Positions 3,651 to 41,557 of a DNA stretch of 44,808 nucleotides are shown piece by piece. The notes under the pieces were generated by a model. It was not told the origin of the DNA. It did not search any database and saw nothing but the letters and a program-made list of their open reading frames with translations. A program made the position numbers and the translations under genes. Position 1 is the first letter of the stretch. Every line of letters begins with the position of its first letter. Where the stretch lies: NCBI GenBank assembly GCA_902175065.1, contig CABIIJ010000019.1, forward strand, positions 1 through 44,808, in the 5' to 3' direction. This DNA comes from an uncultured Comamonas sp. GTDB lineage: Bacteria; Pseudomonadota; Gammaproteobacteria; Burkholderiales; Burkholderiaceae_C.

Positions 3651-5647
3651 TCTGCAAGCACCCAACCATTTGCCGTCCACGTACCGTTCTTGCCATTTGG
3701 CATGGTGTAGGTCTGCCCAATAACACGCTTGGACACTTCTTGCGGGGCAGCAGTTGGCACAGCCGCCTCCCCCCCGATCTGCATAGGCCGATACAGCCCA
3801 GTATTCGGGTCAAACACCACGGCGTAATCCCCGTCGCGCTTGCCTGTCGCGGGATCTACTGAACCGCGCACCACGTCCAGTTGGAACGGCTTGGCCTCCT
3901 TGCTACCAAACAAATCCGGGTACATCTCCCGCATCACCGAACGCTGCTCGGGCGTAGCCTTTTGCCATGCTTCCTGGGCATTCTCCCGGCGCTGTGCAGT
4001 GCGAACATCAAAGCCCCGCACCTGGGCATCCATGCCGGCGCGTTGCTGCTCAAGCGCAAGGCGGCCCGCATCCCGCTGATTCGCCCCTTGCTGCTGCATC
4101 TGCTCACGCTGCAAACCGGCGTTGGTGTCGTTGGTCTTGGCCTCCAGCGCCGCCTGCCCGCCGTAGCGTGCGGCCATGTCGCCCTGCAATGCCGCCTGGT
4201 AGGCCATCACTGCCGGATCTTGCATGGCGTACTTCTTGCGCGGGGCACGTTGCATCGCCCACTCGGCATCCATCTTCAACCCGCGCAGATTCTGCCGGGC
4301 CGTGAAATCGTTGCCGCTGTGGCTGATTTGCGGCGCGGCAAAACCGCGTGGCTGCTGGACGGCCTCCTGCTGCTGGGCCTGCTGTTGCGCGGCCACCCGT
4401 CCCAGGCTTTGCGCCTGCTGCTGGCCCGCCAGGGCATTGGCCGCCTGCATGTTCTGGGCGCTAGGCTGGCCGGTGAAGCCTGGGGCAAAACCCATGCCCT
4501 GGGCGTTGTCGCTGTATTGGCCAGGGCCATGCTGGTAGACACCGGGCAGGCCGCGCACCTGGGGCTGGGTGGGCACGGCCTGGGCTGCCGCGCGGCGCTG
4601 CATTTCCTCGGCATTGACCAGTGATTGTGTTTGCGGCGTAGCGCCCGGGGAGGTTTCTGGCCCTGCCACAGCGCCCTGCTGCAATGGGTTAATCGACGAT
4701 ACGTCACCCGTCAGAAAAGTCTTGCCCGCTTGCAATGCAGTATCAGCCACAGGGCGCACCACCTTTGCCGCACTGCTGTAAACATCATCGGCAAGGCCAA
4801 TCAACGGTGTTGCAGCCGACCGGGCAGATTGCCCCAAAGCGGCCCCTACCCCTCCCCGGCGATACGCCTCTTTTGCATCGTCCATCGAACCTTGAACGGC
4901 AGCAGTCGTGCCTGGGAAAGTGTCAGCAAGAAACCCGACAACCCCGCGAGATGGCTGCGCAGGCGCTGCGCCGGACGCAGCAGGCAGCACACTGGCCGCA
5001 CCACTCGCCCCCGGCAACCGATTGCCAGGAAAGGTATTGGTCGTGCTGTTCGGCGCAGGTCGATACCGGGCATTCATCTGCTGCGTGCGCTCGGCCAGCC
5101 CGGCATTGGCGGTGGCCAGCTTGGCATTTTGGTCAGCAACGAACTGCGCCCGTGGTGTCGGCGCGGCAGCCGGGGCCATGGCAGGCGTGGATGCAGGCGC
5201 GGCCCCACCAGACAATCCAACACTACCCGGCTTGCGCTGCTCATCATCCGGCGCCACCAGCCCACCATTGGCAAAAAACATCCTTGGCCCAAACCCCCTG
5301 GGCACAACAGCCTGTTCATTGCCCGGCGTATGGGTCTGCGCCACGGCTGCATCCAGCGCCCCAGGGCCACCCATGGCTGCCACGGTATCGGGCGGCAGCA
5401 CGTACTCGCCGGGCTTCATCATCGCCGGGATGCTGTCGGGCTGCTGGTTCAATGCCTGGGCCTGGGCCATCGCACCCGGGTTGAACCCCAGGCCAGCGGC
5501 CGGCTGTTGGGCGTCCTGCGCCATCGCGCCCGGGCGAAAACCCAAGCCAGGGCCGGGCTGCTGCCGCATAGGCATCACACCGGGGCCAAAGCCCCGTGCC
5601 AGCGGCTTTTGGATGGATTTGGCTTTGATGGCCTGTGAGGCTGCCAT
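3647..5647 (-). CDS. Large Ala/Gln/Pro-rich internal virion protein
   Basis: A 666-residue protein. The N-terminus carries imperfect tandem repeats of about 17-20 residues built on GFGPGVM, GFRPGAM and GFNPGAM (residues about 20-70). A PGEYVLPPDTV segment follows, then long Ala/Gln-rich low-complexity stretches (residues about 370-430 with runs of QQQAQ) and a likely alpha-helical region with LEQQRAGMDAQVRGFDVRTAQ. This composition and position fit a podophage internal head or ejection protein. The start was chosen at 5647 because CAGGAG lies 7 bases before it; an upstream in-frame ATG lacks this. The same 15-base start context, CAGGAGCGACCTATG, recurs at 15352. Confidence 0.7.
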   Translation of the reverse strand: MAASQAIKAKSIQKPLARGFGPGVMPMRQQPGPGLGFRPGAMAQDAQQPAAGLGFNPGAMAQAQALNQQPDSIPAMMKPGEYVLPPDTVAAMGGPGALDAAVAQTHTPGNEQAVVPRGFGPRMFFANGGLVAPDDEQRKPGSVGLSGGAAPASTPAMAPAAAPTPRAQFVADQNAKLATANAGLAERTQQMNARYRPAPNSTTNTFPGNRLPGASGAASVLPAASGAAPAQPSRGVVGFLADTFPGTTAAVQGSMDDAKEAYRRGGVGAALGQSARSAATPLIGLADDVYSSAAKVVRPVADTALQAGKTFLTGDVSSINPLQQGAVAGPETSPGATPQTQSLVNAEEMQRRAAAQAVPTQPQVRGLPGVYQHGPGQYSDNAQGMGFAPGFTGQPSAQNMQAANALAGQQQAQSLGRVAAQQQAQQQEAVQQPRGFAAPQISHSGNDFTARQNLRGLKMDAEWAMQRAPRKKYAMQDPAVMAYQAALQGDMAARYGGQAALEAKTNDTNAGLQREQMQQQGANQRDAGRLALEQQRAGMDAQVRGFDVRTAQRRENAQEAWQKATPEQRSVMREMYPDLFGSKEAKPFQLDVVRGSVDPATGKRDGDYAVVFDPNTGLYRPMQIGGEAAVPTAAPQEVSKRVIGQTYTMPNGKNGTWTANGWVLAD

Positions 5648-6802: not shown

Positions 6803-8629
6803 TCAGATCCTCTCGGGGCGTTTGTATTCAGGGTAGTAAATCCAGGGGCGAATCTGATCGCAAGGCACGCGCATCCCCCGAGGATCGCTCATGACGAATA
6901 CCTGCGACCCCCCGTGGACAAATGCGTTATCAGTACCAAAAGTACCGGGGGAATCACTTCCTGTCCTCACTGAATCCCAGTATGCGCTTGTAAACCACGG
7001 TGATAGGGCTTTAGTCTTCGCCCGCCCTGCCCGTGACCATGATTGCCCATTATCTAAAGAGTGGTAATAAACGATTTCATCGCCATTCAATGTGGGCAGC
7101 AATAGTGAATATACTCCATCACCGACTCTGTCCAATACACTGATACGCCCCACCGTATCATTCATTAACTCCGCATCAACACCATCCATCGAGAGTTCCT
7201 CAAAACTCCTTCCCTGGTCATGCGTTATAAAAAATTTGACAGGGTTATATGGCCTGATGGATGTATCGCGGATTGCCCGCACCCTAATAATCACTGCGCC
7301 GCCATTAACAGGTGTAAATTCTGACCATGAAGTGTTTACCGTCCTGAAAATACTGCCGCCAGCAGGCGGCTGCCATAGAACACCTGGATCCCAGAGGGCG
7401 TGATGGTGCAAAAATTCCCCGCTCTCAGAAATAACCCACGCATGTACGCCGCGCCGCATGTATGGAACACTGCTACTCCCGCCGCTGCGGTAAAAATTTG
7501 CCACCCATAGAAAACTTCCGTCGTCCAACGATACCCCGCTACCGTTCACCATATTCCACAGGGCCATATTTGTTATGGAGTAGTCGGTCGAATACTCAAA
7601 ATACCCTTCCGGGCGGTTGCCACGGATTGCAGCGCTGGCCATATACGCCGTATCGAACTCCATCAAGTCCAACATCTCTGGGGGCAATCCCACGTCGCGC
7701 ACCATCTCGACGGTTCCGCCGAAATCTTTAAATATGTAGAGCCACAGCCGCCCGCCAGGGCCGACCTCCGTAAAAGAAGGGTGTATGCGCTGACAAACCA
7801 GAACGGCGAAACGTCCAGGGGCTAGTGGTATGGGAGTACCGGCGATCATCGAGCAGCCCGATGCTCCAGGCGGGAGGGAAAATCCGCGCTGCGTGAACAC
7901 CCCCTCGCTATCGAGTACACACAACACGGGGGACATAACTGGTCTCCTCCAGTAATCCTCCCCGCCTTCTTCATGGATACAGACGGCCACGGCGCATTTA
8001 TCAGACAATCTCCCGCCTGTCGGGAAAAACCCCACCAACTGAGGGATGAACACTCCAGCCGAAGGGTAATCCGGCCTGGACGCCCTGGCTTCGGGTGGGG
8101 TAGCGTTCATCATCGCGGGGAGTTCGGCTGATTTTAAGCGCCCCCCGGACAGTACTCGGCGCTTCGGTACGGGGCACACTAGAACGGCGAGTGTGCGGCG
8201 ACTGATCGCGGCGACAGGTTGAAACGTCTCCCCCGGCTTTATTTCCATGGATGTCGTTATGTTCACATCCTGCGTCCGAATCGTGCCAGAGTTCAATGCC
8301 CCGTTCGCATCCGCATAGCTATAAATCCTATTATTATTTTTATGGCGATGTCTCATTTTCTTAGGAGACTCCCCGAAGACATTTGAGCGGCTTCTTCTGT
8401 CAGGATTAATCAAGACGGAATGTAGCCTGACCCGCTCTGGCGCACCGTCCTCCCCGCCAAGAAGCTCAATGGCATCATGCTCGCCTGCCTTTGATACTCG
8501 GTACGCACCATGAGCAGAGGCGCTGGCGAACGGTACGCTCGTCATCGTCGCCTTCAACGTGCGCAGCTTGCCTTTGGCCTCTCCCAGCCTGCCGTTGTCC
8601 TGTCCGTAAATCTTGGGGAATTTGGACAT
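6803..8629 (-). CDS. Sialidase-like (Asp-box) beta-propeller virion protein
   Basis: A 608-residue protein. Two Asp-box motifs (S/T-x-D-x-G-x-x-W/F) are visible near the C-terminus, THDQGRSF and SLDNGQSW, each in the hairpin context typical of six-bladed sialidase/BNR-type propellers. Aromatic beta repeats run through most of the protein. In phages such proteins often bind or cleave surface glycans, but no catalytic Arg triad can be assigned by eye, so enzyme activity is open. The start is ATG at 8629, two bases after the upstream stop, with GGAGG about 10 bases before it; a TTG two codons earlier overlaps that stop. GC content is lower than in the capsid genes, suggesting a swapped module. 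Confidence 0.65.
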   Translation of the reverse strand: MSKFPKIYGQDNGRLGEAKGKLRTLKATMTSVPFASASAHGAYRVSKAGEHDAIELLGGEDGAPERVRLHSVLINPDRRSRSNVFGESPKKMRHRHKNNNRIYSYADANGALNSGTIRTQDVNITTSMEIKPGETFQPVAAISRRTLAVLVCPVPKRRVLSGGRLKSAELPAMMNATPPEARASRPDYPSAGVFIPQLVGFFPTGGRLSDKCAVAVCIHEEGGEDYWRRPVMSPVLCVLDSEGVFTQRGFSLPPGASGCSMIAGTPIPLAPGRFAVLVCQRIHPSFTEVGPGGRLWLYIFKDFGGTVEMVRDVGLPPEMLDLMEFDTAYMASAAIRGNRPEGYFEYSTDYSITNMALWNMVNGSGVSLDDGSFLWVANFYRSGGSSSVPYMRRGVHAWVISESGEFLHHHALWDPGVLWQPPAGGSIFRTVNTSWSEFTPVNGGAVIIRVRAIRDTSIRPYNPVKFFITHDQGRSFEELSMDGVDAELMNDTVGRISVLDRVGDGVYSLLLPTLNGDEIVYYHSLDNGQSWSRAGRAKTKALSPWFTSAYWDSVRTGSDSPGTFGTDNAFVHGGSQVFVMSDPRGMRVPCDQIRPWIYYPEYKRPERI

Positions 8630-8631
8630 GC

Positions 8632-11298
8632 TCAAATCCTCCGTCCAGACTGAGCCACGTTGATGTCCACCGAATCGAGTTCAAACGGCTGTCGGTTCAC
8701 CAGTTCAAAGCCGTAGAGCGTTGCCCGCAGCCCCTTGCCGGTATCCACCCGCTGCTGTTGGCTGTGCCGGTCACTACGCCGCGCCTGGTAGGTGTATTGC
8801 TGTCCGTTGGCCTGCACCGTCACGCTCAGTACCCCATGGCTGGCCACCCCCAGGTACACATTGCTCACATGCTTGAGCTGCCTGCTGCCCAAATCCATCT
8901 GCCCGGTCTGGATGCGGGAGTGGATGGGCGCCTCTCCGTCCCGCTCGCCTTCCAGCAGATAAATGCCGCCTTCATCCGCACCGAAGTAGTGCCCACCGAT
9001 CAAGGCAAAGCTGTTGAAGCTGTAGTTCTGGTAGCGGCTCACTGCACCGGTGCGGGCATTGAGTACCCACACCTGATCGCCGGCGTCAAAATCCACCAGT
9101 CTGCCTGGATCGCCTGATACAGCCTGTCCTCGACCGCCCACACTGGCCGCGCCCTGCACCACCGAATCGATGAAAGCCAGCAGCGCAGCATCAAGCTGCC
9201 AGTGGGCCGCGCCCTGAGCCTTGGAATCAACCGCAACCCCTACCATCTGCTGCACGTCCAGCAGTGCCTTGAGCGCCCCCCGGCTGGAAATCACGGCCAC
9301 CAGATGGGTGTGCGCATACAGATCATTCCAGCCAACCGCCGCAGACCCTACGTAGCATGGAACACCGGGGGGATCGGCAAATGCGTAAGTGGTCAAAGCA
9401 GGCAGCAGGCCCACATCCTGAATCCCCGGCGCAATACCTGCGCCACCGATGGACTGCATCGAAGGTAAATCACCACCCTCGTCCTGGCGTGCATTCTGTC
9501 CCGCACGGGCGATGCCGACGCCGATCACCGGGGACAGCTCCGCGCCTACTTGGTAACCAGTGGGGTTGTTCGGGACATTCTCCTGGGCATCCATGACCCC
9601 CGTGGAGGTTACGGTTGGCAACTCCCCATAGCCATAGGCCGCACCCCTGGGCATCAGAATGCCGTACCCGTGCATAGCCGGCAGCACCCCCGCACTGCCC
9701 GAGAAAATCCCACCCCCACCGTCCACGGCTGGCAAATCAGCCATCTGCCACACAAGATCACCACTCCACGCTTCACCCACCACCATGGGCAAGTCTGCGT
9801 CGTACTGCACGCCATGCGCCGGGGTGTGATCGGCCGTCAGCACCTTGTCATTGCCAAGGTACATCACCGCTCCCAGGTGCAGGCTCCCAGTCACACCCAT
9901 GGGCAGCCAGCCCCAGCCACCAAGACCGCCTATCCGCAGGCCGTCCGTATACATCTCGATGGTGAACTTGTCGCCTTTGGTGATTTTCTGCACACCGCTC
10001 CACGGCGGGGCATCCTCCCAATCTGCACCATCGGGTATGACCACCCGTGCCATCCCGCTCTCCACTCGCACGCCCACCAGGATATGGTCTGGGTGGGCAG
10101 GGGATTCGACATTGGACAGTCCGACGACAACTCCGACTGCATCAGGGCTGACCGTGAACTGGAAGGCAGGGATGGCTGGCTCTGCCAGATCACTCCACCT
10201 GCTTTCTGGCACCGTAGGGTACGCACTGTCGATCGACCGCGCCCCCGCATTCCACCCAGGGTACATATCCCACTCGGTCGCGGGCAGCTTGCCGGGTTTG
10301 GCGGGGACACCGGGCACCCAGCGTTTAGTCCACCTCTGGTCGCAGACCACGCGAGTGACATAACCGTATTTGTTGGTAGTCCAGTATTCCCCTGTAACCA
10401 AGTCGCGCCCGCGCTCGATTTCCACAAGCTCCCATACGATCTCTGACCGGCATGTCTCGCCAAGCCAAATATCCGCCCAATAGCCAGGGACTTCAGGTGT
10501 CGGCGGGTATCCAGGATCGTAAGACACCATTTGGGATGTCTTCTCCAGCTCCCATTGATAGGATTCGGAAGAATCTCCCCCGCCTCCAAAGACAGGCTTG
10601 GGCAAAGTCCAGGAATTTGCACCGTTTGAAAATTCCTCCGGCTCCTCGGTAATACGGCGCACATCCCAACCACTGAGGTCTTGATTGAAGTACGGAGTAT
10701 CTTTGAACATGTAGTTCATATGCTCTACGGCGGATACATCCCACTGGCTTATGTCTTGGTTGAACGACGTACCTTGGAACATCCCGCTCATGGATTTGAC
10801 GCTGGAGACATCCCATCCCGAAATATCGACATTGAAGCCGTAAGAGTGTGTGAACATTCCACTCATGTCCTCGACATGAGAAACGTCCCATTGCGCAATA
10901 TTGTGGGGAACGTTCACCACGCCATTGAATAGATAGCTCAGGTTTTTGGTATTCGGTGGCGAGACGTCGGGCACTCGCGTCATCCCGAACGGCGTGGCGA
11001 GAGTGAAACGGGAGATTTCATATTCGCCCCACTGGATCACTTCTTCAATGTCCTGCCACTGCCCCTGGGAGTAGAACGAAAATCCTTCGGGGAAATCACC
11101 GTAAACTCTGACGACCAGGCGTGAATAATCGTCATACTCTCCACGGGGGATTTCTACGAAGTTGTTAGGGTAGAACGGTATAGGGGGGCCACCGTCAACC
11201 GTGACCCATCTGGACGTCTCGCTCACGTCACCTGAATAAAACTTGAGTACGTCTGGTCGACCAAATGCGACTTGTAGCGTCAAAGGCTGTTTGTCCAC
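8632..11298 (-). CDS. Large tail protein with N-terminal BspA-type (DUF285) repeats
   Basis: An 888-residue protein. Residues about 117-216 hold about four BspA-like leucine-rich repeats of the Mycoplasma-lipoprotein/DUF285 type, built on [20 protein letters not shown]. The C-terminal 250 residues (AGDQVWVLNARTGAVSRYQN, GSRQLKHVSNVYLGV, ending VDINVAQSGRRI) resemble the conserved C-terminus of short-tail phage proteins. It thus looks like a fusion of a tail protein and a binding module. BspA repeats in bacteria act in adhesion, so receptor or surface binding is likely. The start is GTG at 11298 with AGAGG 7 bases upstream. The next gene carries the same repeat type. Confidence 0.7.
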   Translation of the reverse strand: MDKQPLTLQVAFGRPDVLKFYSGDVSETSRWVTVDGGPPIPFYPNNFVEIPRGEYDDYSRLVVRVYGDFPEGFSFYSQGQWQDIEEVIQWGEYEISRFTLATPFGMTRVPDVSPPNTKNLSYLFNGVVNVPHNIAQWDVSHVEDMSGMFTHSYGFNVDISGWDVSSVKSMSGMFQGTSFNQDISQWDVSAVEHMNYMFKDTPYFNQDLSGWDVRRITEEPEEFSNGANSWTLPKPVFGGGGDSSESYQWELEKTSQMVSYDPGYPPTPEVPGYWADIWLGETCRSEIVWELVEIERGRDLVTGEYWTTNKYGYVTRVVCDQRWTKRWVPGVPAKPGKLPATEWDMYPGWNAGARSIDSAYPTVPESRWSDLAEPAIPAFQFTVSPDAVGVVVGLSNVESPAHPDHILVGVRVESGMARVVIPDGADWEDAPPWSGVQKITKGDKFTIEMYTDGLRIGGLGGWGWLPMGVTGSLHLGAVMYLGNDKVLTADHTPAHGVQYDADLPMVVGEAWSGDLVWQMADLPAVDGGGGIFSGSAGVLPAMHGYGILMPRGAAYGYGELPTVTSTGVMDAQENVPNNPTGYQVGAELSPVIGVGIARAGQNARQDEGGDLPSMQSIGGAGIAPGIQDVGLLPALTTYAFADPPGVPCYVGSAAVGWNDLYAHTHLVAVISSRGALKALLDVQQMVGVAVDSKAQGAAHWQLDAALLAFIDSVVQGAASVGGRGQAVSGDPGRLVDFDAGDQVWVLNARTGAVSRYQNYSFNSFALIGGHYFGADEGGIYLLEGERDGEAPIHSRIQTGQMDLGSRQLKHVSNVYLGVASHGVLSVTVQANGQQYTYQARRSDRHSQQQRVDTGKGLRATLYGFELVNRQPFELDSVDINVAQSGRRI

Positions 11299-25875: not shown

Positions 25876-26765
25876 ACCTCGATCCCCTCAAAAATCGCCC
25901 TCGCCGCCCCTGCGTATTTGTTCGGGTTAGCCGGCCCACCACGCCCACCGCGCAGCGATGGAGCTGCGCCGTCAGAGCGCCGAATCCAGTTGCGCCAAGT
26001 GCCCAGCCAATCGGCCTTGCGCCCCTTAGCACCGGGCACGGCGTGCCAGTAATCCGCGAAGCAATCAGCCTCGCGCCGAACGTCGGCTGGGGTCATGTCC
26101 GGCCTCTGTTCCAACGCCCAATCCCCCCAACTCTTGGGCAACTGCCAGCCATCAGGCAGCCGGGTCCCTGTGCCCGCGCTGCTTGTGGTTTTACGCTTCG
26201 GGGTTGCACAAGCCGATCCAGCAGTGAGTGCTGGCGCAGCCGCAGGCGGCGCTTGCTGCGTTACCGCGTTCCCAACAAAAGGTAGTTCGTTAACTACTCT
26301 TTCTTTTTCTGTATCTGTATCTGTATCTAGCCGCGTGACATTTTCGTGACGCGCCCGTGACGTAACGCGTGACGCTTCCGTGACATCCCCGTCAGGCCAT
26401 TCATTGCAAGTTTCGTCAGCTACCTTTTTAGAAGCGCGATAGCGGCGCTGTCGCTCTGCGGCGGTGTTGTCCTTATCGCTTTTCATCTGGCGCTTGTCCC
26501 AGGCCAGCGGCTGCCAGCTCTCGCAAATCAGGCCAGCGGCAACCAAGCGCCTTTTCACCTCGCGGATCACCGCATGATCAATCCACAGGCGCTGCGCCAC
26601 GATTCGATCCAGCAGCACCGGGTCAATATCACCATCAAGGGCACCGTCAGATTTCAGGGCCAGCAGGCCGATGAAATGACGCTGATCCTCAAAAGCCAAA
26701 GCGATCATCTTCGGGTCGTTCAGAAAGTCCACATACATGCGGAACCAAGGCATTGCTGCGCTCAT
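25872..26765 (-). CDS. Phage replication initiator-like protein
   Basis: A 297-residue protein. The N-terminal domain (WFRMYVDFLNDPKMIALAFE, ALKSDGALDGDIDPVL, REVKRRLVAAGLICE) is a winged-helix domain of the kind seen in phage replisome organisers. A low-complexity linker with a poly-DT stretch (RLDTDTDTEKE) follows. The C-terminal part ends with WALEQRPDMTPADVRREADC and WLGTWRNWIRR, as in DnaT/replication proteins with a C-terminal ssDNA-binding domain. It would open the origin and recruit the helicase. ATG 26765 was chosen over the longer frame for its G-rich Shine-Dalgarno and ATGA overlap with the gene before it. Confidence 0.65.
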   Translation of the reverse strand: MSAAMPWFRMYVDFLNDPKMIALAFEDQRHFIGLLALKSDGALDGDIDPVLLDRIVAQRLWIDHAVIREVKRRLVAAGLICESWQPLAWDKRQMKSDKDNTAAERQRRYRASKKVADETCNEWPDGDVTEASRVTSRARHENVTRLDTDTDTEKERVVNELPFVGNAVTQQAPPAAAPALTAGSACATPKRKTTSSAGTGTRLPDGWQLPKSWGDWALEQRPDMTPADVRREADCFADYWHAVPGAKGRKADWLGTWRNWIRRSDGAAPSLRGGRGGPANPNKYAGAARAIFEGIEV

Positions 26766-27454
26766 ACTGCCCCCCGCGCCTGAGCCTTGGCCCACTCACC
26801 CGCGATCCACAAAATTCCCTTGGGCGTGAATTTGGCCTGGTTGTAAGCATGACTGGTATCACCATGCTCGGCCACGCCCGCCTTGGTTTCAAACCGGCCT
26901 GCGTCAATGTGCGGGGCATGGGGCACCCATTCACCACCCAGCCGGTACATCACCCCGGTGTCATGCAAAAACTGGCGGAATACCGGCTCCTTCACGCCCA
27001 GCAGCTTGCACACTTGCCGGAATCCCTTGCTGCCCGTGCTTGCCTGGGTGTAGCGCTCCACAAACTCGACCTTCGGCGCGGCCAGGGCCAATTGCTTCTC
27101 TGCCTCGATGCGGGCCTGTTCCGCCTGCATTGCCAGTTGTAGGATGTCCATCCGCGACAGCTCTGCGGGCTTGGATTGCCGAGTCTCCAGTTCTTGCCAG
27201 CGATCAATGACACGGGCGCGGTGCTCATCGCTGTAACCGGATACCACTAGATGTGTGTCGCGCTCAATCAGGTCGTAAACCTCGATGGGGCGGCCTCCAG
27301 TGTCCTCGCGGCGGGTTTTACGACTTGATCGTAAAAGCCCCTTGCTGAATAAACGCTCAATGGTGGCCACCACATCGTTGTGACGGGCTTCGACCAGATC
27401 CGCAATCTCGCGGCTGGTCATTGTCATGACAGCCGGAATGTGCATAATCGTCAT
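26762..27454 (-). CDS. Rha/KilAC-type phage antirepressor
   Basis: A 230-residue protein. The N-terminal half (MTSREIADLVEARHNDVVAT, GRPIEVYDLIERDTHLVVSG) is the Rha-type phage regulatory domain; the C-terminal half, from about residue 115 (FVERYTQASTGSKGFRQVCK, LLGVKEPVFRQFL, MYRLGGEWVPHAPHID), is the KilAC/ANT antirepressor domain. Such proteins bind DNA or repressors and alter the lysis-lysogeny choice. GGAGG lies 9 bases before ATG. A palindrome at 27512-27527 upstream may be its operator. Confidence 0.75.
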   Translation of the reverse strand: MTIMHIPAVMTMTSREIADLVEARHNDVVATIERLFSKGLLRSSRKTRREDTGGRPIEVYDLIERDTHLVVSGYSDEHRARVIDRWQELETRQSKPAELSRMDILQLAMQAEQARIEAEKQLALAAPKVEFVERYTQASTGSKGFRQVCKLLGVKEPVFRQFLHDTGVMYRLGGEWVPHAPHIDAGRFETKAGVAEHGDTSHAYNQAKFTPKGILWIAGEWAKAQARGAV

Positions 27455-28951: not shown

Positions 28952-28965
28952 ATCGGAATTCCGTA
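28952..28965. promoter_or_regulatory. Repressor operator O2 (degenerate)
   Basis: ATCGGAATTCCGTA matches ATCGG-N4-CCGAT except the last two bases, and is followed by the -10-like TATGCT (28964-28969) of the repressor's own promoter. An overlapping perfect palindrome, CCGATATCGG (28947-28956), adds a further half-site. Confidence 0.55.
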
Positions 28966-28976
28966 TGCTCTTGGCT

Positions 28977-29636
28977 ATGAACACAGAATTTGGACAGCGC
29001 TTGAAACAGGCAAGAAAAGCTGCCGCATTGACGCAAGCCGAATTGGCAAAAAAGGTGGGAATCGGTCAATCCACCATTGCTGAACTGGAAAAAATCGGCA
29101 ATGGCTCCAGCCATGTTCCCGCCATGGCTTCCATACTGAAGGTGTCGGCTCTATGGCTTGCCACCGGCGAAGGCGCGATGAAGGATGGCTTTGATGTCAA
29201 TGCAAGGAGCATTGATCCAGACATGCGCCGCTACCCGGTGATCTCAAAAATCCAGGCCGGCGCTTTGTGCGAGATCGCCGCTCCATACGCCCCAGGCGAT
29301 GGCTTTGATGTGGAGTATGGCGACGATGATGCGTCTCAGTGGTCGTTCTTTTTGGAGATCGAGGGCGATTCCATGCTTCCGGACTTCCGCCCTGGCGATC
29401 GCGTTCTCATCGATCCGGATGTTCAGCCGCGCCCAGGAGACTTCGTTGCGGCCAGGAACACCAAGCAAGAGGCAACGTTCAAGAAATACCGCGTCCGAGG
29501 CATTGATGAGGCAGGCCAAGAAGTGTTTGAGCTGGTGCCGCTAAACGACAACTACCCCATCCTGCGCAGCGATGAGCACCACCTTGTGGTCATCGGCACT
29601 ATGACTGAGCACAGACGCAAGTTCAGGCGAAGCTGA
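28977..29636 (+). CDS. CI/LexA-type phage repressor with S24 peptidase
   Basis: A 219-residue repressor. The N-terminus is an XRE helix-turn-helix (LTQAELAKKVGIGQSTIAEL, residues 18-37). The C-terminus is a LexA-like S24 peptidase: a cleavage-type Ala-Gly at 94-95, catalytic Ser132 in EGDSM, and Lys169 in ATFKKYR. RecA-stimulated self-cleavage would induce the prophage. It is divergent from the Cro-like gene and should bind the ATCGG-N4-CCGAT operators. The -10-like TATGCT at 28964 puts the transcript start near 28976, so this mRNA may also be leaderless; no -35 is visible, as for a self-activated maintenance promoter. An earlier ATG (28965) would overlap O2. Confidence 0.88.
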   Translation: MNTEFGQRLKQARKAAALTQAELAKKVGIGQSTIAELEKIGNGSSHVPAMASILKVSALWLATGEGAMKDGFDVNARSIDPDMRRYPVISKIQAGALCEIAAPYAPGDGFDVEYGDDDASQWSFFLEIEGDSMLPDFRPGDRVLIDPDVQPRPGDFVAARNTKQEATFKKYRVRGIDEAGQEVFELVPLNDNYPILRSDEHHLVVIGTMTEHRRKFRRS

Positions 29637-31117: not shown

Positions 31118-31885
31118 TCATCCCATCGCAGCACAAAACCGCGAAACACCCCAGGCCCAGCGATACGGGGCCGAAGCCAACAGGAAGCAAAGGCGGGGTT
31201 AGCTCCAAAGGGGGCGAAGCAGATGTGCAGCGAAGTAGTCAGGTGAGCGTGTGTGAGCAACAGCGAAAGCAGGCCGAGGCATCGGTTCTGTGAGGTCATT
31301 CAAGCGGGAATCGGCCCGTACCAAATAGCTGCCAAGTCACGTACCTCTAACCGAGTCCGGGTCGGCGAAATGGGGGCGAATGAGAGAGGCGCCCCAACAC
31401 GCTCACCTGACTACTTCGCAGGCGATGGGTGCCAAGTGATCGAGCCGACACCCTGCGGTCTTTAACAAGAGAGTGGTGAAGGCGGCTACCTGCGAGGGGT
31501 GACATCCCGACGCAATGCGATGGCTGCCGTAGGGGTTCGTTGTGGAGCAGCGAGCAGATGAAGAAAGCCCTTAGGCCGACTGGAAGTCAACCAGTTGGCC
31601 GCCTTGACCACTCTCGCTTGCACCGCCGATGTTGCTCCCCAGCCAAGGTTTGGGGTTCGTCCGGCTCAATAGCACCCTCGGGCATGGCCGAGGCAATGCG
31701 CGGCGTCCCTGCCGTTCACAGTCCGCCAAAGCGCGGTACACGGACAAACGGGTAAGGCGAAGACGGCCAAGAGCAAGAACGGTCATGCAAGTTGGAATCC
31801 TTGCAAACGCTTCCCGGAGCGGCCAATCCGGGATAAATCCTCAGTCTTGCGTGCAGGGCTGAGGATTTATTTCAAGGAGCGAAAT
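31118..31885 (+). ncRNA. Structured RNA leader, about 770 nt, no convincing coding frame
   Basis: This is the stretch between the rightward promoter and the gene at 31886. It holds long perfect or near-perfect inverted repeats: a 23-bp stem of 31230-31252 with 31397-31419 (no mismatch); an 18-bp stem of 31469-31486 with 31598-31615 (one mismatch); inside the latter a 10-bp hairpin (31574-31583 with 31591-31600); TCCCGG/CCGGGA hairpin 31812-31833; and a perfect 12-bp hairpin (31833-31844 with 31859-31870) ending just before the ribosome-binding site of 31886. The stems are too long and orderly for chance and the frames here are short shadows. It may be a cis-acting antiterminator leader or a large phage RNA of the GOLLD/ROOL kind; I cannot match it to a known family. 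Confidence 0.6.
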
Positions 31886-38584: not shown

Positions 38585-39184
38585 ATGACCAATCTCATCA
38601 CATTACCAACAGACATCCAGCCCGGCCATGCGTTCGAGGGCGGCTTCTACGGCGGCCAAGTCCGTCTCGCCTCGGGCATATTCGCAATCGCGTGGGCGCC
38701 CAAGTCCAGCCAGATCGTCGGCGCCATCGGCGTGCATGAAGCCAATGCGTACGACTATGCCGACAGCCGCGCCAACACACTGGCCCTGGCCGACGCTGGC
38801 AGCCCCCTGGCCCAATCTGCGCTGGCAGCCAACATCAACGGCCACACCGACTGGGTGCTCCCGGCCCGCGATGTGCTGGAGCTGGGCTACCGCCTGCTCA
38901 AGCCGAAGAAACAAGAGAACTATGCCTCGTGGCGCGACGGCGAAAACCCCAACAGCGTGCCTCCGGGCCATCACTACACCGAGCAGTCTCCGGTGCAAAC
39001 GACTGCCGATCTGTTCCGCGCTGGAGAGGCAGAAGCGTTCGATCCGCACTGGTACTTAAGCAGCACTCTCTACTCCGCTGGCCGGGCGTTCGGTCAGTAC
39101 TTCCTCAGCGGCGGCCAGTACGGCAACGGCGTCTCGTTTGAGGCCCGCGCCCGGTTCGTCCGCTTGATTCAACTCAACGCTTAA
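38585..39184 (+). CDS. DGR target (variable) protein 1, DUF1566/Lcl-type C-lectin fold
   Basis: A 199-residue protein with the hallmark of DUF1566/Lcl-type DGR targets: an N-terminal beta part, HTDWVLPARDVLELGYRLLK in the middle, and a C-terminal ligand face WYLSSTLYSAGRAFGQYF carrying the variable repeat. VR1 (39071-39163) codes for residues 163-193, with diversified codons at 170, 172, 174, 175, 177, 179, 180 and 181. All 11 base differences from the TR fall at TR adenines. AAAGGA 6 bases before ATG fixes the start. The binding target is unknown. It is on the early strand, away from the tail genes, so where it is displayed is unclear. Confidence 0.85.
   Translation: MTNLITLPTDIQPGHAFEGGFYGGQVRLASGIFAIAWAPKSSQIVGAIGVHEANAYDYADSRANTLALADAGSPLAQSALAANINGHTDWVLPARDVLELGYRLLKPKKQENYASWRDGENPNSVPPGHHYTEQSPVQTTADLFRAGEAEAFDPHWYLSSTLYSAGRAFGQYFLSGGQYGNGVSFEARARFVRLIQLNA
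39071..39163 (+). repeat. DGR variable repeat 1 (VR1)
   Basis: 93 bases aligned without gaps to the TR at 40321-40413. There are 11 mismatches, and every one is at a TR adenine (A to G seven times, A to T three times, A to C once). The final 33 bases (gtctcg...ccgc), which should include the homing initiation site, are identical in TR and both VRs. Confidence 0.9.
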
Positions 39185-39213
39185 TCCTTCAATTCTTTAT
39201 CTCAGGAGCCAAC

Positions 39214-39768
39214 ATGACAACTATCGTCATCGAGGGTGCTGCCCGCATCACGATCACCCCTCCCACAACCTCCAGCGAGGCCATGGCCGCATTCGAACGC
39301 GTTATGCAAAAAATTGGCCGGGCTGATACGCAAGAGACTCAGGCCGGAGTGCGCGAAGGTACTGCCGTGGAAATCTTCAGCACCACGCCGCCCCGTATCG
39401 GGCAGTACTGGCGCGGTCAAGGCGGCATTTATGCCGGCATTGCCCGTGGCCAGGCAGTCGAACCAGACTACCACTTGATCCTCGCCGTAGAAGCCCCGGA
39501 AACCGGCTTCACCTGGGAGGCCGCAAAAACCCATGCAAAAACGATCGTAGCGGATGGGCACAACGATTTCGCGCTTCCGATGCGCTTTGAGAGCGCTCTT
39601 CTGTATGCCAATCTGCGCGACATGATCAACGCCGACCATTGGCATTGGACGGGCACAGAACACTCCGCTGGCCGGGCGTTCAATCAGAGCTTCGACGACG
39701 GCTACCAGAACGGCTACGGCGTCTCGTTTGAGGCCCGCGCCCGGTTCGTCCGCAGATTGGTTCTTTAA
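39214..39768 (+). CDS. DGR target (variable) protein 2, DUF1566-like
   Basis: A 184-residue protein. The N-terminal domain (MTTIVIEGAARITITPPTTS...) differs from target 1 and is followed by the core GFTWEAAKTHAKTIVADGHN, LPMRFESALLYANLRDMINA and WHWTGTEHSAGRAFNQSF typical of DUF1566/C-type-lectin DGR targets. VR2 (39662-39755) gives residues 150-181, with diversified codons at 157, 159, 161, 162, 164, 166, 167 and 168. AGGAG lies 6 bases before ATG. It is the last gene before the Avd-like gene. The ligand is unknown. Confidence 0.85.
   Translation: MTTIVIEGAARITITPPTTSSEAMAAFERVMQKIGRADTQETQAGVREGTAVEIFSTTPPRIGQYWRGQGGIYAGIARGQAVEPDYHLILAVEAPETGFTWEAAKTHAKTIVADGHNDFALPMRFESALLYANLRDMINADHWHWTGTEHSAGRAFNQSFDDGYQNGYGVSFEARARFVRRLVL
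39662..39755 (+). repeat. DGR variable repeat 2 (VR2)
   Basis: 94 bases aligned without gaps to TR 40322-40415. Seven mismatches, all at TR adenines. Identity continues two bases further 3' than in VR1. VR2 is nearer to the TR than VR1 (7 against 11 changes), which fits either a more recent overwrite or less mutagenesis. Confidence 0.9.
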
Positions 39769-39782
39769 TTCTTTGATGCTTT

Positions 39783-40151
39783 ATGGCTTTGCACACCCAC
39801 CTGCCGATCTATCGCAAGGGCTGCGATCTTGTGTCGCTGGCCTATGAGGTTCAGAAGGAAATGCCTCGGCATTTCAAGCGGACACTTGGAGAAAAGATCG
39901 TAGCTCTCTGCATGGACATGCTCGACCTGATGGCCGAAGCAAATGCCTCCAAAGGCCATGAGCGGGCGGACTGCATCCGCCTCCTGCTCAAATGCCAGCA
40001 CAGGGCCACGGTATTGCTTCGGGTCAGCCACGAGAAGCGCTGCATATCCAACAAGGTGTGGGCGCAGTCCGTGCAACTGCTGGACAACATCGGCAAGCAG
40101 GGCGGTGGCTGGCTCAAAAAATCCGTGAACGCAAAGGCACCCGCAGCATGA
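39783..40151 (+). CDS. avd: Avd-like DGR accessory protein
   Basis: A 122-residue, helical, basic protein between the second target gene and the TR, the usual place of the accessory variability determinant. It has four helices: RKGCDLVSLAYEVQKEMPRH, FKRTLGEKIVALCMDMLDLM, ERADCIRLLLKCQHRATVLL and ISNKVWAQSVQLLDNIGKQG. This is the four-helix-bundle Avd family, known to form a pentamer that binds the DGR reverse transcriptase and RNA. The upstream ribosome-binding site is weak. The stop overlaps the RT frame's ATG (ATGA). Confidence 0.85.
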   Translation: MALHTHLPIYRKGCDLVSLAYEVQKEMPRHFKRTLGEKIVALCMDMLDLMAEANASKGHERADCIRLLLKCQHRATVLLRVSHEKRCISNKVWAQSVQLLDNIGKQGGGWLKKSVNAKAPAA

Positions 40152-41557
40152 CAGTTACGGCTCTCATGCCTGTGTGCAACTTGAATCTGGTCGCGCCGCT
40201 GGGTGACCTACCCACCGCAAGGCACATCGCAGATACCGCCGCCCCTGGGCTGGCCCGGTCTGGTGCAGTTTCCCCGCTGATCGGCGCAAGCCTTCGGCGG
40301 GGTGACGTGGAAAGCGCGAATACTCCGCTGGCCGGGCGTTCAATCAGAACTTCAACAACGGCAACCAGAACAACAACGGCGTCTCGTTTGAGGCCCGCGC
40401 CCGGTTCGTCCGCAGCATCAAGCTCGTTCACATTCAGCCAGCTCGTGCAAGCCTATCTGGACTGCCGCCGCCACAAGCGCAGCAGTTCAAGCTGCCAGGC
40501 TTTTGAGGCACACCTGGAGCGCAATCTATGCGCTCTGTTTGAAGAAATCGCATCTGGGCAATACCGCCCCGGGCGATCCATCTGCTTTGTCGTCACACGG
40601 CCCAAGCCCCGCGAGGTTTGGGCCGCTGATTTCCGTGACCGGGTTGTCCATCATCTGCTCTACAACCACATTGCGCCGCGTTTTCTGGCCTCCTTCGTGG
40701 CCGGAAGCAGCGCCTGCATTCCTGGTCGGGGCACTCTCTACGCGGCCCGGCATGTGGAAGCAGGCATGCGCAGCATCACGCAGAACTGGAGCCGAAAGGC
40801 TTTCTACTTGAAAGCCGACCTCTCCAACTTCTTCGTCTCCATCGACAAGCATGTGCTGTGGGAACAAATCACTGTCAAGGTGCATGAGCCGTTTTGGCAG
40901 TGGCTGGCCCACACCATCTTGTTCCATGACCCGCGTGAGAACGTCATCGTTCAAAGCGGGCCACGCCTACTGGCCCAGGTACCGCCTCACAAAAGCCTGT
41001 TCTCGGCGCCGGCTGATACGGGACTGCCCATCGGCAACCTGTCCTCGCAGTTCTTCGCCAACGTCCACCTGGATGCACTCGACCAGTTCTGCAAGCATCG
41101 ACTCAAAGCACGGCACTACACCCGGTACGTGGATGATTTTGTCCTGCTGGCCGAATCAACACAATGGCTATCGCAAGCGCTCCAGCGCATTGAACACTTC
41201 CTCGGCTCCCGACTGCACGCACAGCTCAACCCGAAGAAAACCATCCTCCAGCCGGTATCGCGTGGCATTGATTTCGCCGGGCAAGTCATCCTTCCCTGGC
41301 GGCGCATCACCCGCCCGCGCACCCTGCGTCAGGCCCTGCACAGGCTGGAACACATGCCAGACGCCGATGTGTACGCCAGCGGCAATAGCTACCTGGGGCT
41401 GGCCCGACAAGCCAGCGCCAGCCACCACGCCCAAGCCCAACTCTGCCGCGCCCTACTCAAACGCGGGCACGCGGTCGATGGGATGCACTTGACCAAGGCG
41501 TTTCGCAAAGCGCCGACCACAAGCAGAAAGGACACGCATGAAACCCCTGCCCTTTGA
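40148..41557 (+). CDS. DGR reverse transcriptase
   Basis: A 469-residue frame from ATG 40148, coupled to Avd by an ATGA overlap. The RT domain has KADLSNFFVSID with Asp224, the DGR-specific IGNLSSQ at 295-301 (most other RTs have QGxxxSP) and the YVDD catalytic box at 327-330. It copies TR RNA into cDNA with errors at adenines, which replaces VR sequence. The conserved domain begins near residue 95 (FSQLVQAYL), so the first 90 residues, coded across the TR, are an unusual extension. A GTG at 40445 would give a family-sized 370-residue protein but has no ribosome-binding site. The true start is unsettled. Confidence 0.9.
   Translation: MTVTALMPVCNLNLVAPLGDLPTARHIADTAAPGLARSGAVSPLIGASLRRGDVESANTPLAGRSIRTSTTATRTTTASRLRPAPGSSAASSSFTFSQLVQAYLDCRRHKRSSSSCQAFEAHLERNLCALFEEIASGQYRPGRSICFVVTRPKPREVWAADFRDRVVHHLLYNHIAPRFLASFVAGSSACIPGRGTLYAARHVEAGMRSITQNWSRKAFYLKADLSNFFVSIDKHVLWEQITVKVHEPFWQWLAHTILFHDPRENVIVQSGPRLLAQVPPHKSLFSAPADTGLPIGNLSSQFFANVHLDALDQFCKHRLKARHYTRYVDDFVLLAESTQWLSQALQRIEHFLGSRLHAQLNPKKTILQPVSRGIDFAGQVILPWRRITRPRTLRQALHRLEHMPDADVYASGNSYLGLARQASASHHAQAQLCRALLKRGHAVDGMHLTKAFRKAPTTSRKDTHETPAL
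40321..40413 (+). repeat. DGR template repeat (TR)
   Basis: 93 bases with 20 adenines, grouped as AAC/AAT codons in the VR reading frame (one AAT and seven AAC are the varied positions). Compared with both VRs every difference is at an adenine. The CAG codons stay unchanged in both VRs. The TR lies between the Avd gene and the conserved RT domain, within the open frame that runs on into the RT, but in a frame different from that of the VRs. Confidence 0.92.

Follow-up and report, generated by a model that had tools for sequence, protein, structure and literature searches.

The diversity-generating retroelement (DGR) of phage BPP-1 is arranged as mtd-avd-TR-brt, in which a target gene with a variable repeat (VR) at its 3' end is followed by avd, the template repeat (TR) and the reverse transcriptase (RT) gene. 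According to passages of PMC12875486, the BPP-1 spacer folds, recruits the RT-Avd complex and primes cDNA synthesis, and a motif at the 3' end of avd stops the cDNA. Both two-target DGRs and TRs that overlap an annotated RT open reading frame (ORF) are already in print. In the relevant sections of the DiGReF paper of 2012 (PMC3521204), structural group 3 is defined by a TR overlapping the 5' or 3' end of the annotated RT ORF, and DGRs with two VRs are listed, one of them in Pseudomonas fluorescens WH6. DGRs with several VRs amount to about 13-14% (passages of PMC3521204 and PMC10743442), and the gut phages nd4 and nd12, which carry tentaclins, possess one TR for two different C-lec targets (passages of PMC10743442). 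Here, we describe a DGR located at 38585-41557 of a stretch of 44,808 nucleotides (44.8 kb, hereafter the window) from an uncultured Comamonas sp., which is the complete contig C19 (CABIIJ010000019.1) of a 3.2 Mb genome assembly of 103 contigs. From the comparisons reported below, we read it with good confidence as the two-target DGR of a temperate podovirus-like phage, the TR of which would be read in a second frame as the N-terminus of the RT.

The element is complete and consists of two lectin-fold-like targets, Avd, a TR and a DGR-type RT. The order target 1, target 2, Avd, TR, RT given in a preliminary description, made from the sequence alone, is correct. The parts, all on the plus strand, are the following:

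38585-39184, plus strand: target 1, 199 aa, Lcl_C/C-type-lectin-like, VR at the 3' end
39071-39163, plus strand: VR1, 11 mismatches to TR, every one at a TR adenine
39214-39768, plus strand: target 2, 184 aa, Lcl_C/C-type-lectin-like, VR at the 3' end
39662-39755, plus strand: VR2, 7 mismatches to TR, every one at a TR adenine
39783-40151, plus strand: avd, accessory protein, 122 aa
40135-40326, plus strand: RT-15 structured RNA (RF03018), proposed 5' element of the template RNA
40148-40150, plus strand: proposed RT start codon, the ATG of an ATGA overlapping the avd stop, within the first RT-15 hairpin
40148-41557, plus strand: proposed full RT coding sequence, 469 aa, taking in most of RT-15 and TR, based on a stop-free frame and on frame conservation
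40321-40413 (to 40415 against VR2), plus strand: TR, template of both VRs and, in a second frame, proposed to encode the RT N-terminus
40378-40413, plus strand: invariant 3' block of 36 nt common to TR, VR1 and VR2, which we take to be a region like the initiation of mutagenic homing (IMH) site
40430-41557, plus strand: conserved RT core, 375 aa, the start of which is our choice

When TR was compared with both VRs over 40322-40413 (92 nt, 20 A; VR1 39072-39163, VR2 39662-39753), all 18 mismatches, 11 in VR1 and 7 in VR2, were found at TR adenines; the chance of this under random placement is 3.1e-9 and 8.8e-6, respectively. The adenine-only mismatches reported earlier were thus recovered in the same numbers. 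Direct comparison of VR1 with VR2 gave 12 differences in the 92 bases and, as read from the translations, 7 differing codons among the 8 varied in either repeat, in agreement with the earlier statement that they differ at most of the varied codons. A non-A change in VR2 lies at 40321, just outside the compared region, so that the VR2 repeat begins one base later than that of VR1. No further VR was found in the host genome, where the 36-nt block, with up to 3 mismatches allowed, occurs at three places, all in the window; a DNA search also returned three.

The avd product matches bAvd (PF22296, E 3.6e-10) and PHROG 3206, 'Avd protein of DGR' (1.9e-23). The RT matches RVT_1 (1.6e-13) and the PHROG reverse transcriptase family (4.8e-107), and among solved structures its best sequence match is PDB entry 8ub7, also a reverse transcriptase (1.5e-40). 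The motifs IGNLSSQ (41030-41050) and YVDD (41126-41137), also named in the preliminary description and presumably the signature of a DGR RT, are both in frame. A TR/VR pair differing at TR adenines, a DGR-type RT, Avd and a C-terminal VR in a target of C-type-lectin fold are all present, and the TR/VR, Avd and RT matches confirm the complete DGR with two targets on one template that had been proposed. Furthermore, the comparison of the repeats supports the copying of one TR into two genes by the DGR.

The window and BPP-1 share the order target-avd-TR-RT, the VR at the target 3' end and adenine-only TR/VR differences (17 of 17 in BPP-1), and the window RT is 33% identical to brt. However, only one VR was found in the BPP-1 stretch taken, compared with two targets in the window. 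The BPP-1 TR begins at the avd end, whereas RT-15 lies 5' of TR in the window; and about 198 nt carrying a Phage_DGR RNA separate TR from the RT core in BPP-1, compared with 14 nt, without a Phage_DGR match, in the window. The linear Avd-TR-RT layout of the preliminary description stands as regards the order. A free-standing TR does not, as the TR is enclosed in the RT open frame 39992-41557, and the RT-15 RNA lying between avd and TR had been overlooked. An overlap of TR and RT ORF is shared with DiGReF group 3; in the sections of PMC3521204 that treat it, the overlap rests on annotation, with neither a translation test nor an RNA element mentioned.

Related loci were collected with the RT core as query, which gave 38 viral and 24 genome loci. 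Phage records matched by the core numbered 111; the RT is 58-62% identical in nine of them, and seven of these nine were taken together with BPP-1. In a host-family sample of 299 genomes, the core was matched in 46, mostly weakly. The close set comprises 58 loci in which the RT is 57% or more identical and a TR can be detected; it contains the window and same-contig duplicates (e.g. L029/L055), and leaves outside L001, a copy of the window, and L012, the contig of which is too short and in which no TR was found. The far set comprises 16 loci with a TR and an RT 27-34% identical. For the phase comparison over the close and far sets, the VR frame of each locus was taken as the frame with most Asn codons. 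For the trees, the counts by clade and the codon-position test, identical RT cores and cores below 900 nt were taken out, leaving 49 distinct loci. The midpoint root of the RT-core tree of these 49 loci separates 18 on the window side (window clade) from 31 others (sister clade), with support of 0.982/0.999.

The phase from TR to the RT core was identical in 58 of 58 close loci, and the stretch joining them has undergone 11 length changes on the RT tree of the 49 distinct loci. In the 16 far DGRs, TR and RT core are 155-287 nt apart and all three phases occur. In half of the close loci (29/58), no in-frame ATG, GTG or TTG was present from the TR end to RT core +45; thus, with starts limited to these codons, translation there must begin in or before TR.

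The place of this start appears to differ between the two clades. In the window clade, the avd stop is part of an ATGA in 18 of 18 loci, with the ATG in RT phase in all 18, and the RT frame is open through RT-15, TR and the link in 17 of 18, whereas of the other two RT-15 frames one is open in none and one in 2 loci. Among the sister loci, the avd stop never forms an ATGA (0 of 31), the phases from avd stop to TR are spread over 13, 10 and 8 loci, and the whole stretch is open in the RT frame in 7 of 31. Between the avd stop and the TR anchor, every one of the 7 length changes on the window side was a multiple of three, versus 1 of 14 on the sister side (Fisher 6.9e-5). An in-frame ATG within TR was found in 2/18 window-side and 29/31 sister loci; in the other two sister loci (L098, L099) an ATG directly follows TR. 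The constant phase, the ATGA and open frame of the window clade and the in-TR ATG of the sister clade together make it most likely that TR encodes the RT N-terminus. The window RT would then most likely be a protein of 469 aa (40148-41557), with 94 residues before the core derived from RT-15, TR and a short link.

The search for homologous loci suggested in the preliminary description returned phages with the same organization. Burkholderia phage Magia, Pseudomonas phages Cruim01, SC_8_H2H8_2017, Haboob, phPA-G and LPPA56, and Shewanella phage vB_Sb_QDWS have an RT 58-62% identical to that of the window, avd, TR and two VRs upstream; in Magia, one target was labelled a potential DGR target by the depositors. 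Unlike the window, these seven phages have no ATGA at the avd stop; the RT would start within TR in most of them and just after TR in Haboob and phPA-G. In L070 and L071, at a greater distance (RT 40%), a start likewise overlaps the avd stop (GTGA and ATGA, respectively), the TR phase is that of the close loci and the RT frame runs open through TR; RT-15 had no match in them at E<=0.5. The remaining loci at middle distance are mixed: L057, L031 and L068 show another phase, and L068 and L072 are incompletely open.

RT-15 was matched in the window with 170.5 bits (E 2e-41), above its gathering score of 82. The match takes in 17 bases at the avd end and 6 at the TR start, and so fills the interval from avd to TR; the avd stop and the proposed RT start fall in its first hairpin, both in the Rfam consensus and in the minimum free energy (MFE) fold. 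Of 12 related loci scanned, 11 contain RT-15, the exception being L057 (RT 42%); the RNA is also annotated in the Cruim01 record. The Phage_DGR family (RF03022) gave no match in the window at its gathering score, nor in 40000-41000 at E<=5. In BPP-1 it lies between TR and RT (L100, 3822-3954, 104.7 bits); the distance from TR to RT core in the window is too short for such an element.

Other settings for the RNA were considered and rejected. A general DGR RNA is not indicated, since neither BPP-1 nor any of six DGR loci with an RT 39-46% identical gave an RT-15 match at E<=0.5. An occurrence apart from DGRs was looked for in the 299 family genomes, which gave 13 matches at E<=0.001, 7 of them above the cut-off. 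The seven genomes are that of the window, five with a close RT, and G141, which has avd and target-like matches and in which no RT core was found. In a class-wide sample with stricter filters, RT-15 occurred in 1 of 369 genomes, the window's own. A 3' spacer hidden in the RT gene was likewise rejected for the window clade (18 loci), where synonymous change after TR is 0.48, 0.44, 0.41 and 0.41 within a gene range of 0.33-0.61. In the Pseudomonas set (26 loci), the corresponding values of 0.24, 0.26, 0.31 and 0.38 are at the low end of 0.23-0.59, and a weak constraint in the first RT codons is possible there. Synonymous change is lower in TR itself (0.13-0.25 in the window clade, 0.05-0.08 in the Pseudomonas set). 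We infer that RT-15 is most likely part of the template RNA recognised by RT-Avd. A literature search, with subscription papers mostly outside its reach, found neither a paper linking RT-15 to DGRs nor a test of the translation of a TR-RT overlap.

Signs of activity were seen in pairs of related loci. Between L014 and L015, 19 of 39 TR-A sites differ, compared with 1 of the 65 other VR positions, none of 104 in TR and 5 of 1493 elsewhere. Between L098 and L099 (Haboob and phPA-G), the VRs differ at 13/32 and 12/34 TR-A sites and at 0/137 other VR sites; their TRs are identical, and 71 of 2533 remaining sites differ. As these changes are in both VRs, both targets have been diversified from one template. 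Among 12 pairs with an identical RT region, TR-A changes were present in one and absent from the other 11. Five of these 11, in which a viral contig is paired with a genome contig, are wholly identical over the stretch. The remaining six were formed by L006, L007, L008 and L010; in three of them a single non-A VR difference was seen, located in L007. The out-of-register VR2 row of L018/L042 was left out of the TR-A site count, and this pair was compared by alignment.

A decayed element was observed in G141 (L117, on G141:C1, reverse strand, near the RT-15 match). Its avd is 59% identical and its RT-15 shortened, and three target-like matches were present; the RT core was found neither in the 13 kb searched nor in the RT search of the family genomes. 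The BLASTN match to the window stops before TR, and no repeat-based TR search was made there.

Both targets scored below the Lcl_C cut-off of 34.9 (PF07603; 17.5 bits for target 1, 16.4 for target 2), and both match PHROG 4245 (2.5e-17 and 3.5e-14). The AlphaFold model of target 1 has a pLDDT of 75.5 and that of target 2 of 77.8, with about 50 in the VR part. For both, the best PDB match is 8q4e, the C-terminal domain of Legionella Lcl (E 2.1e-3 and 2.2e-3, prob 1.00 in each case), which was also matched by sequence profile (E 0.0049 for target 1, 4.2e-8 for target 2). With E values near 2e-3 and model stretches of low confidence, the support for the fold is moderate, and the models suggest targets that are Lcl-like by fold, outside formal membership of Lcl_C. 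Target 1 resembles viral DUF1566 proteins, and the viral matches to its model include a tail fibre protein. BLASTP aligned the two targets only over 43 C-terminal residues, VR included. The different N-terminal domains claimed earlier are in accordance with this alignment; the common PHROG and common best fold, the Lcl C-terminal domain, speak against them.

Two targets are the usual state in the close set, in which two VRs were found in 52 of 58 loci, three in one and one in five; of the latter five, at least L048 carries another VR, interrupted by an indel, and L014 is truncated at the end of its contig. The 16 far loci have one VR each. Two targets had been called a notable form; given these counts, and the DGRs with several VRs already published, this view does not hold. 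According to passages of PMC10743442, the VR of one target in nd4 and nd12 is located close to the 5' end, whereas both VRs of the window are at 3' ends. Relatives of target 1 (E<=1e-15) occupy the first target position in 11 loci and the last position in 20; for target 2, the relative comes first in 10 loci, last in 14, and is the sole target found in 4. Two target families thus persist, with an order that has changed between lineages. The locus with three VRs on one TR, L041 (Pseudomonas palmensis BBB001), has them at 925-1029, 4521-4611 and 5193-5293, one about 3.5 kb from the next, and the same strain has a second such cassette (L042).

The window is a temperate podovirus-like phage or prophage. 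Its portal and terminase genes are 68-69% identical to those of Pseudomonas phages 8P and F116, and it encodes an S24-type repressor (28965-29636), an anti-repressor (26762-27454), RecT, YqaJ and a C5 methylase. The structural genes identified are on the minus strand; the DGR is on the plus strand, amid early-type genes. A second known structured RNA of the phage, Rfam Burkholderiales-2 (RF02917, 84.4 bits), lies at 31625-31699 on the minus strand, and a 610-aa ORF of the late region (6803-8635, minus strand) has no PHROG match at E<=0.001.

The open frame upstream of the RT core could also be explained by an ordinary layout, with the RT starting just past TR at GTG 40445 (RT core +15), TR and RT-15 being non-coding and the open frame a by-product of a GC-rich conserved RNA. 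Several points count in this direction, or weaken the case for a coding TR. This in-frame GTG could indeed start a shorter RT in the window, and all 16 far DGRs, BPP-1 included, have in-frame starts from the TR end to RT core +45. RT-15 alone is open in the RT frame in 15 of the 31 sister loci (the other two frames in 0), where a later start is inferred, so that its openness alone proves little. RT-15 contains a stop in L029/L055 (Curvibacter, one distinct sequence), the single exception on the window side, although the stop together with the ATG in the TR of L029 looks like a separate switch of start. Variability by codon position is near flat (0.212/0.230/0.243 in RT-15, 0.234/0.257/0.259 in TR); selection on the peptide encoded by RT-15 was rejected on these almost equal values, which give no sign of selection on a particular peptide, and what selection seems to preserve is the frame and the start, with no visible effect on the peptide. 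The RT-15 MFE lies no further than z -1.35 from that of shuffles, 13 of 200 of which were equally stable. Moreover, the loci are related and their counts non-independent, and the clade split was chosen after the data had been inspected; an earlier grouping, which required an open frame from an ATG at the avd stop, was partly circular (its 17/17 open and 6/6 triplet counts are true by construction), and the counts regrouped on the tree agree with it. What decides for us is that the ordinary layout leaves half of the close loci without an in-frame start codon in the required interval, that a start at GTG 40445 would truncate a conserved RT N-terminus, and that no reason is given for the constant phase and the triplet-only length changes. 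We therefore regard it as improbable and retain an RT N-terminus encoded by TR. A related question is whether RT-15 is a regulatory leader of the RT gene, acting in translation control outside the template ribonucleoprotein (RNP). Its first hairpin, with the avd stop and the proposed RT start, and its Rfam name, merely RT-15, would suit such a role; but it is kept in Pseudomonas-type loci with an RT start inferred downstream in TR, it ends on the first TR bases, and the 3' element Phage_DGR is without a match here even at E<=5. We consider this leader reading rather unlikely, while noting that a leader role and a template-RNP role of RT-15 are compatible and can hold together.

That the DGR of the window might be decayed and inactive is brought to mind by the decayed relative in G141. 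However, its genes are open, its VRs are without a mismatch outside TR adenines over 92 nt each, and in some relatives recent change is focused on the VRs, so that decay is very improbable. As for the targets, they could be tail receptor-binding proteins, as in BPP-1, or small non-virion lectins of the early region, and we find these possibilities evenly balanced. The tail fibre protein and the DUF1566 proteins among the viral relatives of target 1 speak for the tail; the shortness of the targets (199 and 184 aa), their grouping with RecT, YqaJ and the C5 methylase, and the distant position of the portal, terminase and tail-fibre-like genes on the opposite strand speak against it.

Taken as a two-target DGR with a coding TR, the locus suggests the following course. 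By analogy with the biochemistry of BPP-1, RT and Avd would reverse-transcribe TR RNA, making errors at adenines, and the resulting cDNA would replace the 3' ends of the two lectin-fold genes, both being diversified from one template. RT-15, directly 5' of TR, would most likely belong to the RNA recognised by RT-Avd, and a single transcript may serve as RT mRNA and as template. In the window clade, the RT most likely starts at the ATG on the avd stop (40148) and is translated through RT-15 and TR; as this codon is embedded in the first RT-15 hairpin, the hairpin could be unfolded by ribosomes that terminate at the avd stop. In the sister clade, mostly Pseudomonas-type, the RT most likely starts at an ATG within TR. 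A bolder proposal, which we put forward tentatively and at somewhat less than even chances, is an inverted template RNA: RT-15 would recruit the RNP 5' of TR, TR would be translated as the RT N-terminus from a start switched between the avd stop and TR, the RNA would be mRNA and template by turns with mutual exclusion, and cDNA would be primed without a spacer of the BPP-1 type.

If our main reading is true, the RNA family RT-15 would gain a setting as part of a DGR, and there would be a DGR lineage without the 3' spacer that passages of PMC12875486 describe as recruiting and priming the BPP-1 enzyme. The site at which cDNA is primed without this spacer, and the sharing of one RNA between ribosome and reverse transcriptase, would both become testable. 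A single stretch of DNA would then be used in two frames, once as the template of two hypervariable proteins and once to encode the beginning of its own copying enzyme.

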